Translations under genes and position numbers: made by a program
DNA from: Planctomycetaceae bacterium
GTDB lineage: Bacteria > Planctomycetota > Planctomycetia > Planctomycetales > Planctomycetaceae
NCBI GenBank assembly: GCA_021732845.1
Contig: JAKFUF010000023.1
Span: 62,001 to 126,000, forward strand
Reading direction: 5' to 3'
Length of the DNA: 64,000 bases
Notes under the pieces: generated by a model
The model's database searches: none
What the model saw: only the letters and a program-made list of their open reading frames with translations
Told to the model about the DNA's origin: nothing
Shown here: positions 4,980-60,141 of the stretch, piece after piece
Numbering within the stretch: position 1 is the stretch's first letter
How the letters are laid out: each line of letters opens with the position of its first letter

Positions 4980-6545
4980 TCAGGCCGCGCGACGGTTGGG
5001 GACCGAGTCTGCCTCTTTCGGCACTTCTTCAGAGATGTCCAGCGCATCACCGGGCTGCCACGCCACGTTGAGCCGGGCGGCTTGCCACAGTCCGGCCAGC
5101 GACAACAGCACAAACCAGGTGGGGACTCCGGCGATCAGCGCCGCGTAACCCCATTTGAGCCCCAGCACGTCCTTCACCGACAGCGGTCCCAGGAACAGCA
5201 GGCCGGCGAGAACTCCCTGAAGCCGCCAGTTTCGTGTCTGCCATGCGGCGTGGACCAACACCAGCATCGGCAGAATCATCACCACATAATGGGACTTGCT
5301 GCTTTGCGGGCTGAACAGCAGCATCAGACACAAGACCATCGACGCCTCCAGGCCCACGCGTGGCTCAGAATCAGTCACTGGCAAGCTCTGCTCGCTGCGG
5401 AACCCCTGGCGCGGATGGGTGGCTTGCGCCACCTGCTTCATCCGCTGTCGGGGTTCCTGGCTCTCTGGTAAGTTCTGCTCGCTATGGAACCCCTGGCGCG
5501 GATGGGTGGCTTGCGCCACCTGCTTCATCCGCTGTCGGGGTTCCTCGCTCGCGGGTAAGTAAAGACTGGGAAACGAGACTGCCTGGGCTGGCATCAAATT
5601 CTTGCGCCGCAGACTCAGCCAGCAGACGCCCACCAGCACTGCGGAAAGTCCCAAGCCGAGCCAGCGCCGGGGTCCAGGTTCATTGAGCCTCGCCGCAGTC
5701 GGTGAATTTGGAAACCAGGACACGCCCAGCGTCGAGGCGCGATGCACCAACCCGCCCAGCGACTGATTCAGGGGCTGTGCCTGCCCGCCATGGATCCACT
5801 GGCCAGGGGCCGTATGACTCGCGCGGTCGAGGACCTCCCGGTGCCAGTCTTCGAGGTGGGAGACCTGCGGCGTCCGGGGGAACACGAGATCGGGCACGAC
5901 ATTCCAGCAGATGGCCGTAAGGGCGAAGACCACTGCGGCCATCCGCTGGCCACGTCCCCACAGGTAGGGTCCGATGAGCCACGGCGTGCATTTCATGGAG
6001 GCCGCGGTACCGAGCCACATGGCCGACGGGTTTTCTTGCCGGCGCTGCAGGGCGACAAAGCCAAGCATCAGCATTGCGGCGATGACGGCGTCGAACTGGT
6101 GGTTTTCCAGCGGGCTGAGGAGGAACCGGCCGCCCAGGACCAGGGCTCCCGTCAGGATCGTCGCGTTCTGGCGTGACCAGCCACGGAGGCCAGCCAGGTG
6201 CCACGCACACCATACGGTGACGCCCAGCGCCGCCACACTGACGAGATACCAGGCGATGACCCCGGCGAAGGAGGGCAGAAGTGCCAGTGGGATGGACTGC
6301 ATCGCGATGGAGGGCGGATAGACGTACATGTCGACATCTGTGTGCCGGTACAACTGCTCACCGGCCATCAACCGGCGGGCGCTTGGCGCGAACATCGTTG
6401 TCCAGACCTTCACCGGCCAGTCCCGCAGGAACGCGGAGGAGTAGCCGCCGAGGAACAGCAACAACCCGAGAACCGTCAAGCACCAGCGCAGGTGCGTACG
6501 GCGACGCACCGCGGTTGCCACCGCTGCGGGGACACTCTGAGCCAT
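4980..6545 (-). CDS. GT87 (DUF2029) polytopic membrane glycosyltransferase carrying two in-frame palindromic repeats
   Basis: The ~521-aa protein has an N-terminal membrane segment followed by many more, and the family hallmark of an acidic/aromatic luminal loop then YPP (MYVYPPSIA). GT87 enzymes are thought to transfer mannose or similar sugars from polyprenyl-phosphate donors. The ATG at 6545 (MAQSVPA) is preferred; an upstream in-frame start at 6713 would add a non-hydrophobic leader and overlap the next gene. Between the last cytoplasmic/periplasmic loops, about residues 334-391, lies an unusual duplicated 29-residue segment (EPRQRMKQVAQATHPRQGF). The DNA encoding it is repeat family A, which is otherwise intergenic at 55.8-56.7 kb. 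The insertion keeps frame and lies in a loop between hydrophobic segments, so the enzyme may still work. Confidence 0.85.
   Translation of the reverse strand: MAQSVPAAVATAVRRRTHLRWCLTVLGLLLFLGGYSSAFLRDWPVKVWTTMFAPSARRLMAGEQLYRHTDVDMYVYPPSIAMQSIPLALLPSFAGVIAWYLVSVAALGVTVWCAWHLAGLRGWSRQNATILTGALVLGGRFLLSPLENHQFDAVIAAMLMLGFVALQRRQENPSAMWLGTAASMKCTPWLIGPYLWGRGQRMAAVVFALTAICWNVVPDLVFPRTPQVSHLEDWHREVLDRASHTAPGQWIHGGQAQPLNQSLGGLVHRASTLGVSWFPNSPTAARLNEPGPRRWLGLGLSAVLVGVCWLSLRRKNLMPAQAVSFPSLYLPASEEPRQRMKQVAQATHPRQGFHSEQNLPESQEPRQRMKQVAQATHPRQGFRSEQSLPVTDSEPRVGLEASMVLCLMLLFSPQSSKSHYVVMILPMLVLVHAAWQTRNWRLQGVLAGLLFLGPLSVKDVLGLKWGYAALIAGVPTWFVLLSLAGLWQAARLNVAWQPGDALDISEEVPKEADSVPNRRAA
5399..5457. repeat. 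Palindromic repeat family A, copy A1 (inside the GT87 gene)
   Basis: A 59-bp imperfect palindrome with outer arms GGAACCCC (5399-5406) and GGGGTTCC (5450-5457), a second pairing block CGGATG/CATCCG, and a central hairpin GGTGGC/GCCACC. It lies wholly inside coding sequence and is repeated 87 bp later as A2. Confidence 0.85.
5486..5544. repeat. Palindromic repeat family A, copy A2 (inside the GT87 gene)
   Basis: This is a second 59-bp copy with the same nested arms as A1. The A1-A2 spacing is exactly 87 bp (29 codons), so the pair adds a duplicated 29-residue peptide without breaking the frame. The intergenic copies are 58 bp because they lack one T in the central loop. Confidence 0.85.
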
Positions 6546-32546: not shown

Positions 32547-32831
32547 TTTTCCGCCCTCGGAAGGTGCCTCAAGTGACTTCTTGTAACCCTTACAAAGCGA
32601 ATGAAAAATTGCCAAACAGCGATTGACGATTTCTCAAGAATCACGAGAATGCCGCCGCGTTGAACGAATCACCTCTCGCAGCCAACCCCAAACCAGCACA
32701 TCTCACCGCGGCCTTCAGCCCACCTGCCAGCCCACCGGCGAATGGACTCGTCCGGCCTGACAGTTTCCACCTTGGATTGTGAAGTCCGCGGTCACCCAGC
32801 GGCGGCGCACGGACGCCAACCGCCGCTGTTT

Positions 32832-33100
32832 CTTATTGCAGGAAATCATCACACCTGTCGTGGAGCGGCGACAAGTCGCTTCTTCGCTCCACTATCGGTG
32901 TGACGATTTCCTGCGAGGTTCTTATTGCGAAAATCTGTCACACCTGTCGTGGAGCGGCGACAAGTCGCTTTCTCGCTCTACTATCGGTGTGACAGATTCT
33001 CGCGAGGTTTTAATTGCAATAATCCGACACACACCTGTCGTGGAGCGGCGACAAGTCGCTCTCTCGCTCCACCATCGGCGTGCTGAATTATTGCGATATT
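32832..33100. repeat. Array of three ~90-bp nested hairpin units upstream of murE
   Basis: Three direct copies of a core starting ACACCTGTCGTGGAGCGGCG lie at 32851, 32940 and 33031 (spacing 89 and 91 bp). Each core contains nested complementary blocks (TGGAGCG with CGCTCCA; GCGA with TCGC). Each is enclosed by its own outer arms: 32838-32855 with 32897-32914, 32927-32944 with 32986-33003, and about 33014-33035 with 33077-33096. Outer arms differ in sequence between units, yet pair within each unit (17 of 18 positions in units 1 and 2; 8 consecutive bp GCAATAAT/ATTATTGC plus more in unit 3). Linkers share CTTATTGC/TAATTGC and GCGAGGTT. It ends ~100 bp before murE. Confidence 0.85.
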
Positions 33101-33203
33101 TTCACCACAAAAGCACTCACTTCGAGCAGTCGGCATTGAATACATCAGAGCAAACCTCTGACACTGCGATGCCCGACATTCCATCCACATCCTGAGCCAC
33201 GTT

Positions 33204-34721
33204 ATGAGTCGGTGGGTTCCCCACGTTCCGGCCGCGGTCAGCCTGCGGCGATTGTTCCCCTCGGCCAGCTTTGTTGGCTGCGGAGACATCGTCGCCCTGC
33301 ACGCGACAGACCGCAGCGGCGACTGTCGGCCACAGTCTCTGTTCGCGGTCATCCGGGGGCCACGGCATGACGGTCACAACTACATCGCCGAGGCGATCAG
33401 CCACGGGGCGAAGGCCCTCCTGGTCGACCGCCCGCAGCCCAATGTCAATGTCCTGCAGTGCATCGTGCCCGATGTGCGGCGGGCCTATGCCGAAGTTTGT
33501 GCAGCGATCATGTCGCACCCCTGCCGCCAGTTGGCGCTGGCGGGTGTGACCGGAACCAACGGCAAGACAACCACAACCTGGCTCATCCGTTCGATCCTGC
33601 AGGCCGCCGGCCAGCAGACCGGACTGTTGGGGACCATTGAATACCATGACGGAAAGAAGGGTGAAGCAGCGGCGTTGACCACTCCCGACAGCCGTTCCTT
33701 TTCGGACTGGCTGCGGCGGATGGTGGTGCAGGGCACGACGCATGCCGCAATGGAGCTTTCGAGCCACTCGCTGGATCAAAGGCGGACGGCGGGCACCCTG
33801 CTCGACGCCGCGGTGATCACCAACATCACACAAGACCACTTCGACTATCACGGAACCTACGAGAACTACCGCCGCTCCAAGCTGCGGATCTTTGATTACC
33901 TGAAGCCGGCCGGGATGGCGATCGTCAACGCCGACGATCCGGGCAGCCGCTCCTGCATGGAAGACGCGCCCAAGCGGGTGCTGTCGTTCGGCATGGATGA
34001 GCCCGCCGACGTTCAGGCGATGATTCAGGACGTGACGCTGGAAGGAAGCCGGTTTCGCCTGCGGATTGGCGTGGAATCCTGCGACGTGCAGACCCACCTG
34101 ATCGGCCGGCACAACATATCGAACTGCCTGGCGGCTGCCGCCGTCGCCGCGCATCTGGATGTTTCACTGGCGGAGATTGCTGAAGGCATCGAATCTCTCA
34201 CCCGTGTTCCCGGTCGCATGGATGCGGTCGGCCACGGGTCCTGCGGGACGGTTTTCATCGACTTCGCGCACACTCCGGACGCTCTCAACCGGGCTGTGCA
34301 GACCTTGAAGTCGCTGACAACCGGCAGGGTGTTCTGTGTCTTTGGCGCGGGTGGTGACCGGGACAAGACGAAACGCCCGTTGATGGGGAAGGCGGCCAGC
34401 GCCGCGGATGTCGTGGTGGTCACCAGCGACAATCCGCGGTCGGAAGACCCCGCCGAAATCGCCCGTGAAATTGTCGCGGGCTGCAACGAATGGCAGTCTC
34501 AACTGCCACGCGTGGAACTCGACCGCCGAGCGGCCATCCAGTGGGCGCTCAGTAATGCTCGCCCCGGGGACGCGGTGCTGATCGCCGGGAAGGGACACGA
34601 AACTGAACAGATCTGTGGAACCACAAGAACTCACTTCGACGACCGCGAGGTCGTGGAAGATTTTCTCAAGAGCCGTTCGATCATCTCGGCCCCACATGGG
34701 TTTCGCCGGGTGCATGCGTAG
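33204..34721 (+). CDS. murE: UDP-N-acetylmuramoyl-tripeptide synthetase, meso-DAP type
   Basis: MurE adds the third residue to the peptidoglycan stem peptide in the cytoplasm. The 505-aa protein has the ATP-binding GVTGTNGKTTTTW at about residue 113. It has Mur-ligase features TTPDS and HSLDQ-like ELSSHSLDQRR, and the carbamylated-lysine region NITQDHFDYHGTYENYRRSK. The specificity motif D409-N-P-R412 in TSDNPRSEDP selects meso-diaminopimelate over lysine. This supports a DAP-type peptidoglycan in the organism. The gene is followed after 218 bp by murF but is not in a full dcw cluster. The ATG at 33204 has only a weak ribosome-binding site. Confidence 0.96.
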   Translation: MSRWVPHVPAAVSLRRLFPSASFVGCGDIVALHATDRSGDCRPQSLFAVIRGPRHDGHNYIAEAISHGAKALLVDRPQPNVNVLQCIVPDVRRAYAEVCAAIMSHPCRQLALAGVTGTNGKTTTTWLIRSILQAAGQQTGLLGTIEYHDGKKGEAAALTTPDSRSFSDWLRRMVVQGTTHAAMELSSHSLDQRRTAGTLLDAAVITNITQDHFDYHGTYENYRRSKLRIFDYLKPAGMAIVNADDPGSRSCMEDAPKRVLSFGMDEPADVQAMIQDVTLEGSRFRLRIGVESCDVQTHLIGRHNISNCLAAAAVAAHLDVSLAEIAEGIESLTRVPGRMDAVGHGSCGTVFIDFAHTPDALNRAVQTLKSLTTGRVFCVFGAGGDRDKTKRPLMGKAASAADVVVVTSDNPRSEDPAEIAREIVAGCNEWQSQLPRVELDRRAAIQWALSNARPGDAVLIAGKGHETEQICGTTRTHFDDREVVEDFLKSRSIISAPHGFRRVHA

Positions 34722-34939: not shown

Positions 34940-36397
34940 ATGGAACCGGTCCACATCTTTGATCTGTTGGAAGCCACGCGTGGACAGGCCAGCGGCCTGG
35001 ACACCGAGGCTCAATTTTCGCGGGTCTGCACCGACTCCCGCGAACTCCGGCAGGGAGATGTGTTCTGGGCTCTGGAAGGCAAAAACTACGATGGACATGA
35101 TTTTGCCGCCGACGCGCTGCGCAAGGGCGCGGCGTTTTGTGTGGTGAGCCACGCGAAGACGGACAAGGTTCGTGGCCCGAAGGTGGCGGTGGACTCGACG
35201 CTGGCGGCACTGGGCGACCTGGCCCGCTGGTACCGGCATCACCGCGAGTCGCTGGTGATCGGCGTGACCGGCAGCGTGGGCAAGACCACGACCAAGGAAA
35301 TGATTCACGCGGCCCTGTCGGCGACGCACCACGGGGTTCGCAGCGAAAGAAGTTTCAACAATGACCTGGGTCTGCCGCTGAGCCTGCTGGGGCTGGAGGC
35401 CGACCATGAGTATGGCGTGTTTGAACTGGGTGCCTCGAAGATCGGCGACATCCGCAGCCTGTGTGAGATCGCCTGTCCGGAAGTCGGTGTGATCCCCCGC
35501 GTGGGAATCTCGCACCTCGCCAGTTTCGGCAGCCTCGACAACATCTATCAAGCCAAGGGTGAACTGTTGGAATCGCTGCCGCCGCACGGGTTCGCGGTGC
35601 TTGGCGGCGACGACGAACGCATGCGGCAGATGGCGCAGCGGGCGCTGTGTACCTCGATCCTGGTGGGTGAAAAGCAGGGCAGCCAGCTTCGGGCCACCGA
35701 GGTTGAGGTGACCGCCCAGCGGCTGCGGTTTGTCGCCGATCGTAAAAAGTTTGAGATTCCGGGTGCCAGCCGGCAGCACCTCACCGCCGCCCTGTGTGCC
35801 ATTGCCGTGGCGAAAGAAATCGGAGTCGAAATTCCGTCGATCATGGCCGGCCTGCAGAAATTCACCGTTCCGCCGGGACGCGGACGGATTGAAGCCTGCG
35901 GGTCCTGGACGCTGATTGATGACACGTACAACGCCAACCCGACGTCGATGCAGGCCGCCTGCCTGTCACTGGCCGAGTGGAAGGCTGACGGACCAAAAGT
36001 GTTTGTGACGGGGGACATGCTGGAACTGGGGCCGGACTCAGAGCGGTATCACGCCGAACTGGGGGCGCTGGCCGCCAGCCAGAAGGTCGACCATCTGCTG
36101 GCGTTCGGGCCACATGCCCGGAATGTCGCCCAGGGGGCGATCGCCGGCGGACTCTCGCCACACAGAATCGCCGAATGCACCGATCTTTCCATCCTGCAAC
36201 TGGCCCTGGAGTGCGTCCTGGAGCCGGGTGCCGTGATCACCGTCAAGGGGTCGCGGGGCATGCGGATGGAACGGGTCGTCGATTGGTTGAAACAGCAGCC
36301 GCAGCAAGGTCATGAAGTCATTCCCCCTCCCCATTCTGCCGGAAGAGCCGGAAGCGGCTCTGGCGGAAAGAACCCGGGCCGGAGGGCAGTCGCCTAG
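34940..36397 (+). CDS. murF: UDP-N-acetylmuramoyl-tripeptide--D-alanyl-D-alanine ligase
   Basis: MurF joins D-Ala-D-Ala to the UDP-MurNAc-tripeptide, the last cytoplasmic step of stem-peptide synthesis. The 485-aa protein has the N-terminal uridine-binding domain (CTDSRELRQGDVFWALEG) and ATP loop VIGVTGSVGKTTTKEM. The characteristic SFNNDLGLPLSLLGL, the EYGVFELGASKIGDI strand and the DDTYNANPTSM motif are also present. The C-terminal domain includes VFVTGDMLELG and ITVKGSRGMRMERVV. The last ~30 residues (Gly/Ser/Pro-rich) are an extra tail. It pairs with murE upstream; mraY, murD and ftsW are not in the window. Confidence 0.96.
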   Translation: MEPVHIFDLLEATRGQASGLDTEAQFSRVCTDSRELRQGDVFWALEGKNYDGHDFAADALRKGAAFCVVSHAKTDKVRGPKVAVDSTLAALGDLARWYRHHRESLVIGVTGSVGKTTTKEMIHAALSATHHGVRSERSFNNDLGLPLSLLGLEADHEYGVFELGASKIGDIRSLCEIACPEVGVIPRVGISHLASFGSLDNIYQAKGELLESLPPHGFAVLGGDDERMRQMAQRALCTSILVGEKQGSQLRATEVEVTAQRLRFVADRKKFEIPGASRQHLTAALCAIAVAKEIGVEIPSIMAGLQKFTVPPGRGRIEACGSWTLIDDTYNANPTSMQAACLSLAEWKADGPKVFVTGDMLELGPDSERYHAELGALAASQKVDHLLAFGPHARNVAQGAIAGGLSPHRIAECTDLSILQLALECVLEPGAVITVKGSRGMRMERVVDWLKQQPQQGHEVIPPPHSAGRAGSGSGGKNPGRRAVA

Positions 36398-55993: not shown

Positions 55994-56081
55994 CAAGACG
56001 TGGTGACGAGCCATCTCGGTGGTCAACGGGCCTTCGCACTACGCCGCGCGTGCCGCCGGACTGGTCAGTTTTACTCGCTGC

Positions 56082-56139
56082 GGAACCCTTGGCGCGGATG
56101 GGTGGCTGCGCCCCCTTCTTCATCCGCTGGCGGGGTTCC
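56082..56139. repeat. Palindrome A, copy A4
   Basis: A 58-bp copy with full arms GGAACCC...GGGTTCC. The central hairpin is partly degraded (GGTGGCTGCGCCCCC). Confidence 0.75.
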
Positions 56140-56187
56140 TCGCTCCCGGGGGGGCTCTGTGGGGATGCGAAGCGTTGCGGGAAGCGT

Positions 56188-56244
56188 AAAGTCGTTCAGT
56201 CACTCCGCGCCTGGGTTCGAGTCACGGAGTGACTCGTCGACTTT
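56188..56244. repeat. Palindromic repeat family B, copy B5
   Basis: Identical in layout to B4 and part of the second composite unit. Confidence 0.75.
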
Positions 56245-56246
56245 GT

Positions 56247-56333
56247 AGCGGCTGGGCGCAAGCCCTCCGGTGACCGGTGACAAGCGCAGGGAGTGCCGGA
56301 AACCCATCACCGGACGGCTCGCGCCGTGCCGCT
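56247..56333. repeat. Palindromic repeat family I, copy I2
   Basis: Second copy of the I palindrome, 340 bp after I1 and nearly identical to it. Confidence 0.7.
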
Positions 56334-56452
56334 CAAGACGCGGGGACAAGCCATCCCGACTTTCCACAACCCCACCGAGTTCACCTCGGTGGTCAACGGG
56401 CCTTCGCACTACGCCGCGCGTGCCGCCGGACTGGTCAGTTTTTGCTCGCTGC

Positions 56453-56689
56453 GGAACCCCTGGCGCGGATGGGTGGCTGCGCCACTTGCTTCATCCGCTG
56501 GCGGGGTTCCTCGCTCACTGGTAAGTTTTTGCTCGCTCCGGAACCCCTGGCGCGGATGGGTGGCTGCGCCACCTGCTTCATCCGCTATCGGGGTTCCTCG
56601 CTCGCGGGTAAGTGTCAGTTTTGCTCGCTGCGGAACCCTTGGCGCGGATGGGTGGCTGCGCCACCTGCTTCATCCGCTATCGGGGTTCC
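56453..56689. repeat. Three consecutive palindrome A copies (A5, A6, A7)
   Basis: Copies at 56453-56510, 56540-56597 and 56632-56689, each 58 bp, spaced 87 and 92 bp. The 87-bp spacing equals that of the two copies inside the GT87 gene. The last copy ends 18 bp before the GT2 stop codon. Confidence 0.8.
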
Positions 56690-56707
56690 TCGCTCGCGGG
56701 TGGTCGT

Positions 56708-59987: not shown

Positions 59988-60141
59988 GGCCCCGTACTCC
60001 TGAGTTGCCTTGCGTGATGCTGGAGACCGGCGTTGAAAGGAACAGGGCGAACGCCCGTCAAATCACCGTCGGTTTCCAGAATCACGCAGTTTTGACTTGG
60101 TGCTTCTCCATAAGCCTCTGCGGCAATGGGCCGCAGGCTGT

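Follow-up and report, generated by a model that had tools for sequence, protein, structure and literature searches.

The window analysed here, a 64,000-nt stretch of DNA, corresponds to positions 62001-126000 of contig C7 in the 9.25-Mb draft genome of an uncultured member of the Planctomycetaceae, which consists of 262 contigs. It contains a murE-type Mur ligase gene followed by a second, murF-like ligase gene (Table 1). Ahead of murE lies an array of three nested-hairpin units of ~90 bp each, which spans positions 32830-33098 (269 nt) with unit spacings of 89 and 91.

The array and the murE leader

The repeat search of the window recovered the three ~90-bp units with near-identical cores that a first-pass annotation of this DNA had reported. 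The outer arms are self-complementary yet different from unit to unit: on direct reading the 18-nt arms pair at 17/18 positions in unit 1 and at 17/18 in unit 2, as had been described, and those of unit 3 pair less well, with a 2-nt bulge. In unit 1 the hairpin (32838-32914) is preceded by the conserved 5' flank CTGTTTCTTATTGC and followed by the 3' flank GCGAGGTTC. The 19-nt core CTGTCGTGGAGCGGCGACA occurs three times in the window with up to three mismatches allowed, compared to 0.08 occurrences expected. Against dinucleotide shuffles, the folding of units 1, 2 and 3 reaches z scores of -8.3, -7.2 and -4.8 on the + strand and of -10.4, -8.6 and -6.3 on the - strand. The Rfam search of the array region returned no match above the gathering score (the best scored 20.9 bits, with a gathering score of 61), and no intrinsic terminator was called in the array. 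A 138-aa open reading frame running across it (32779-33195) was rejected as a gene, having no Pfam match and being left uncalled by the codon-usage gene finder.

The first-pass annotation had also proposed that alternative pairings inside the core could allow switching. The TGTCG/CGACA pairing is present in the three units of the array and in one further copy (C240, L003). Most copies of the genomic family to which the units belong, termed family A below, have the inner loop CGCTCGCTGGCGCTCAC and lack this pairing; with only four copies capable of it, it therefore does not constitute a conserved switch.

Table 1. Features of the window; R1, R2 and R3 denote the models of family A, family B and the murE leader hairpin, respectively.
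Feature	Position	Strand	Evidence and remarks
Two tandem family-B elements	5380..5558	+	R2 matches G000:C7:67380-67471 and 67467-67558
Second leader hairpin, A-N-GGA-N hexaloop ATGGAC at 32742-32747	32735..32755	+	Comparison with relatives
Conserved murE leader hairpin, separate from the array	32791..32834	+	R3 model, E 1.4e-10
Family-A element, unit 1	32826..32925	+	R1 match 93.0 bits, E 4e-20; boundaries from the 101-copy flank profile
Direct unit 1	32830-32918		Repeat search of the window
Core of unit 1, ACACC-TGTCG-TGGAGC ... GCTCCAC-TATCG-GTGT	32851..32901	+	Conserved columns of the family alignments
Inner mini-hairpin of unit 1, GCGAC-AA-GTCGC	32868..32879	+	Common to the three units and copy L003, not family-wide
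Direct unit 2	32919-33007		Repeat search of the window
Family-A element, unit 2	32919..33013	+	Hairpin 32927-33003; direct repeat D1; fold z -7.2; R1 match G000:C7:94914-95010, 85.4 bits
Matching cores of units 2 and 3	32940-32990 and 33031-33081	+	Bounded by ACACC...GGTGT
Family-A element, unit 3, arms more decayed	33003..33105	+	Hairpin 33016-33094; R1 69.6 bits, E 1.7e-14
Direct unit 3	33010-33098		Repeat search of the window
Mur ligase gene of murE type, 3' of the array	33204..34721	+	Pfam Mur_ligase domains
Second Mur ligase gene, murF-like, after murE	34940-36397	+	Pfam Mur_ligase domains
Four family-B elements	56063..56703	+	R2 matches 56063-56153, 56433-56524, 56520-56611 and 56613-56703

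The array directly abuts a separate hairpin of the murE leader, with a stem formed by 32797-32805 and 32820-32828 and the loop ACGGAC at 32809-32814. The model of this hairpin matches upstream of murE in 10 relatives, and in these ten and the genome under study the loop has the form GC-AYGGAY-GC. The stem covaries, with a score of 0.39 reached in 0/500 shuffles and slid controls of 0.15 or less. Within its own genome the hairpin is single-copy (one match, best 150 of 6575 candidates scored); a match to the leader-loop motif at locus L131 lies in apparent coding sequence and was taken as chance.

In relatives, which lack the array, the hairpin stands ~60-135 nt ahead of murE. Measured from the loop, the distance to murE is 70-136 nt in nine relatives versus 397 nt here. 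The difference of 261-327 nt brackets the 269-nt length of the array, and is most simply read as an insertion of the array into the interval that separates murE from its leader hairpin. The conservation of the array before murE, to which the first-pass annotation had looked for support, is absent: R1 has no match upstream of murE in nine relatives, and the hairpin conserved there is the neighbouring one at 32797-32828. The Rfam search of the relatives' murE loci found nothing relevant.

A second leader hairpin, whose stem covaries too, is located ~65 nt upstream of the 32797-32828 hairpin, and the same kind of hexaloop is found in eight relatives as well as in the window. CsrA/RsmA has the A-N-GGA-N hexaloop as its motif in RNA, and one CsrA dimer is able to span a pair of sites separated by 10-63 nt (PMC7652899). 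We hypothesize from the sequence that the two-hairpin murE leader is a CsrA target; through its CsrA-like loops, it opens a cell-wall gene of the Planctomycetaceae to tests of post-transcriptional control. In several relatives the second stem is followed by T-rich sequence, so that termination or attenuation by the leader, or a decoy RNA of the CsrB/RsmZ kind with its end there, is also possible. The two-hairpin set comprises 32735-32755 and 32791-32834 in the window and the relatives' loci L159-L168 upstream of murE. At L160, L162, L163, L165 and L167, ~90-200 nt before murE, nested helices (CTCGATTCCC ... GGGAATCGA) enclose the first leader hairpin in an aptamer-like layout ahead of a terminator-like hairpin. 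Separate from the array, this leader is arguably the more interesting of the two.

Two dispersed families of palindromes

A whole-genome search of BLAST type gave 29 matches. The covariance model of family A, R1, which was built from 25 copies, gave about 148 matches at E<1e-3 among the best 150 candidates scored, a count that may be a lower bound. The copies follow one plan: flank - TTGC - variable arm - CACC - TGTCG - YGGATC - variable loop, followed by GATCCRC - TGKCG - GTG - variable complementary arm - GC - flank. The complete element measures ~100 bp: its nested hairpin takes up ~76 nt and is flanked by ~12 nt on the 5' side and ~11 nt on the 3' side. When 101 copies are aligned, the sequence around the hairpin is conserved from -12 (CTNTRTNANTTTGC) to about +11 (GCRRGGCYATTTNG). 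A possible decayed member of the family occupies positions 59999-60094 of the window (R1, E 0.037). A composite repeat of ~390 bp, present in well over ten near-identical copies (L065-L079, L081, L082), has inverted terminal segments of its own and one family-A element nested within.

Family B, a sister of family A, was first met as weak matches of R1 and was then given its own covariance model, R2. Its core, ACCCC-TGGCG-CGGATGG ... CATCCGC-TGTCG-GGGT, is laid out as in family A. At least 150 family-B matches were found in the same genome, many of them in head-to-tail arrays that reach about seven units and have ~87-bp spacing, and six copies fall in the window.

The nearest relatives by murE are Planctomycetaceae metagenome-assembled genomes with 60-67% protein identity, and the comparison is thus above genus level. 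R1 had 0 matches in 39 relatives and 0 in 169 genomes of the same family, with the best 24 candidates per genome scored. The core pattern shared by families A and B was found neither in the same 169 genomes nor in 391 other genomes of the phylum. A search of the GTDB contig collection and of IMG/VR, from which the genome under study is left out, gave no match to a stricter exact pattern. The search of planctomycete genomes for the core, suggested by the first-pass annotation, thus yielded no match beyond the genome itself: among the genomes searched, families A and B are restricted to their own lineage.

Upkeep, placement and spread

Across 101 family-A copies, 92.5% of cells form standard pairs and 18/25 pairs have changed on both sides. 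The covariation score is 0.263, compared to 0.127 in shuffled alignments, and was reached in 0/500 shuffles; slid-register controls gave 0.042-0.069. These two controls, shuffled and slid, bear out the compensatory arm changes expected from the first reading of the three units. When the arms are anchored on the core alone, the Watson-Crick fraction is 0.67 in register versus 0.56 expected from column composition, with no pairing excess out of register. Departures from Watson-Crick pairing on the element strand comprise 51 G-T and 80 A-C combinations, counts that do not point to selection at the RNA level there. With wobble pairs showing no preference for the element strand, the hairpin is most likely kept intact at the DNA level. 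The covariation pattern fits DNA hairpins that are selected as such or mended by template switching.

Template switching during replication also generates compensatory changes (PMC8794818); the compensatory change stands, but selection, to which the first-pass annotation ascribed it, is one of two processes that can give rise to it. We regard as somewhat unlikely the reading in which template switching in the replicating hairpin copies arm onto arm, the complementarity being mainly mutational and needing no function. The mechanism is published (PMC8794818), units 1 and 2 display matching shifts in both arms with the core barely altered, and the element strand shows no surplus of wobble pairs (G-T 51 vs A-C 80), as a DNA-level process predicts. 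However, single-sided changes are common among close copies, with 237 single-sided against 64 Watson-Crick double changes in pairs of family-A copies differing at one arm position, and the conservation of the core is left unexplained. The large number of copies offers material for deciding whether compensatory change stems from selection or from template switching. The case also shows that covariation seen within a single genome, even when strong, does not imply a regulatory RNA, which should be borne in mind when RNAs are sought by covariation.

According to a codon-usage gene finder written for this analysis, 97/100 family-A copies are intergenic; they adjoin ~100 unrelated genes, in both orientations. 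For 78 single copies, 25 gene 3' ends were counted no more than 20 nt from the hairpin; copies placed uniformly in the same intergenic gaps would give 9.7 (p<1/5000). This agrees with the placement of REPs, which are mostly intergenic and in many cases <20 bp from gene 3' ends (PMC3733652). Gene starts near single copies show no excess: an enrichment near start codons at 30 nt vanishes at 20 nt, and it may be start miscalling because the reverse strand of the element can supply an ATG. With respect to co-directional neighbouring genes, the copies show no preferred orientation (26 vs 19, p 0.37), and 26/78 single copies are situated between divergent genes.

The clear excess near gene 3' ends would suit domesticated, BIME-like 3'-end or nucleoid elements that serve as terminators, mRNA 3' stabilisers, or gyrase or nucleoid-protein sites. 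We nevertheless consider such a role improbable. The copies have no canonical terminator, as at least five T in the 8 nt past the stem are found in just 5/101 copies in the sense and 10/101 in the antisense direction; many copies are far from 3' ends, including the 26/78 between divergent genes, and the excess may equally show where insertions are tolerated.

The boundaries of the elements bear on a further explanation, in which a DDE transposase would move them as MITEs and the arms would be their terminal inverted repeats. Their ~30-bp imperfect inverted repeats and the copy nested in the ~390-bp composite element, itself repeated in near-identical copies, could be read in this way, but we hold it to be very unlikely: target-site duplications of sizes 2-9 are absent at every tested boundary outside arrays, and the arms vary among copies. 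The ends of MITEs are normally their conserved part. A few enriched duplication-like matches at boundaries were attributed to tandem arrays.

The first-pass annotation had entertained that the array might control murE, as a structured RNA leader, as a switch or as several small RNAs. The array does fold strongly and is found on the murE strand, 100-375 nt ahead of the gene, but such a role is exceedingly improbable, since ~148 copies lie beside unrelated genes, some 100 neighbours in all, their orientation is unbiased and independent of transcription, the wobble counts show no strand-specific RNA selection, the element is missing before murE of nine relatives, the alternative pairing is unconserved in family A and Rfam holds no match. 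The array is not a murE-specific RNA and belongs to a dispersed DNA repeat family; as regards murE, the cluster is most likely a neutral insertion. The annotation's other suggestion, a tandem REP-like element, agrees with the ~148 scattered intergenic copies, many of them within 20 nt of stop codons, and with the presence of other tandem arrays. We conclude that the array is probably a tandem cluster of a dispersed, lineage-specific, non-autonomous mobile palindrome of REP/REPIN-like type.

The mobility of the elements is well supported, if indirectly, by sequence comparison. An IS200-type Y1 transposase gene has its reading frame broken by a family-B copy (L033:1640-1715), and two family-B copies are found ~190-550 nt from a decayed RAYT remnant (L246). 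Y1 and RAYT-like genes are present in the genome; no family-A copy flanks any of those with readable flanks, and a draft of 262 contigs could miss some. The mobilising enzyme could plausibly be an HUH (Y1/RAYT-like) transposase, an assignment we make tentatively. In such a scheme, this transposase would act in trans on copies in the form of single-stranded DNA hairpins and so spread them, the conserved core and interior loop would serve as the recognition site with arms that need only pair, and tandem arrays would arise from slippage or recombination between neighbouring copies.

Several RAYT-like genes adjoin other repeats, with a GAGTCACGGAGTGACTC palindrome beside three. The RAYT-like genes at L243, L244 and L245 (and L242) adjoin this separate palindrome family with core GAGTCACGGAGTGACTC, which in L244 and L245 is found on both sides of the gene. 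They appear to be REPtrons belonging to a further REP family of this genome.

Comparison with known repeat systems

REPINs, the hairpin-forming REP doublets of Pseudomonas and E. coli, show compensatory stem changes and tandem arrays (PMC3116915). The elements described here similarly are scattered intergenic inverted pairs forming one long hairpin at high copy number, with compensatory changes in the stem and tandem arrays that take in the flanks (PMC3116915); each hairpin contains two inverted conserved units, and the hairpins are dispersed and often tandem. REPINs, however, conserve their two ends, the REP 16-mers, and vary in the middle (PMC3116915), whereas the elements described here do the opposite, with a conserved core in the middle and variability in the outer arms and the central loop. 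In REPIN/RAYT systems a RAYT gene has the same repeat at its flanks; among the RAYT-like genes checked in the draft assembly, none was found with family A in this position.

Like the GTAG/CGTC REP superfamilies, the elements are palindromic and mostly intergenic, with many <20 bp from gene 3' ends; the occasional provision of a stop codon and presence in the PVC superphylum are also shared (PMC3733652). In contrast to tagged REPs of 20-40 bp, they form a ~76-nt nested hairpin and carry no GTAG/CGTC tag (PMC3733652). At the two hairpin feet, GTAG occurs in 3/101 and 4/101 copies (background 0.03), GYAG in 14/101 and 16/101 (background 0.21) and CGTC in 3/101 at each foot (background 0.12). TGTC and CCTC reach at most 20/101 and 16/101, slightly over background, and the TGTC of family A sits within the conserved interior loop, not at the hairpin end. 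The self-complementary TIR families of TIRYT genes are also long, self-complementary and partly clustered, in genomes with Y1/RAYT-like genes (PMC3733652). Unlike these, family A bounds no transposase gene found. BIME, ERIC and MITE-type repeats are ~100-bp intergenic palindromes of high copy number; compared by description, not sequence, they resemble our elements in size, placement and copy number and differ from them in that the latter have no target-site duplication.

Families A and B are undescribed and very abundant, have no known REP tag and invert the conserved-ends pattern of REPINs. It is conceivable, if rather unlikely, that they represent a separate class of mobile single-stranded DNA hairpins, apart from tagged REPs and REPINs, with recognition through an internal core that bears a conserved asymmetric interior loop (TGTCG/TRTCG or TGKCG), and with outer arms free to diversify as long as they pair, moved by an HUH-type or other enzyme. 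If so, the two sister families of this class would jointly account for some 300 copies or more in a single planctomycete genome.
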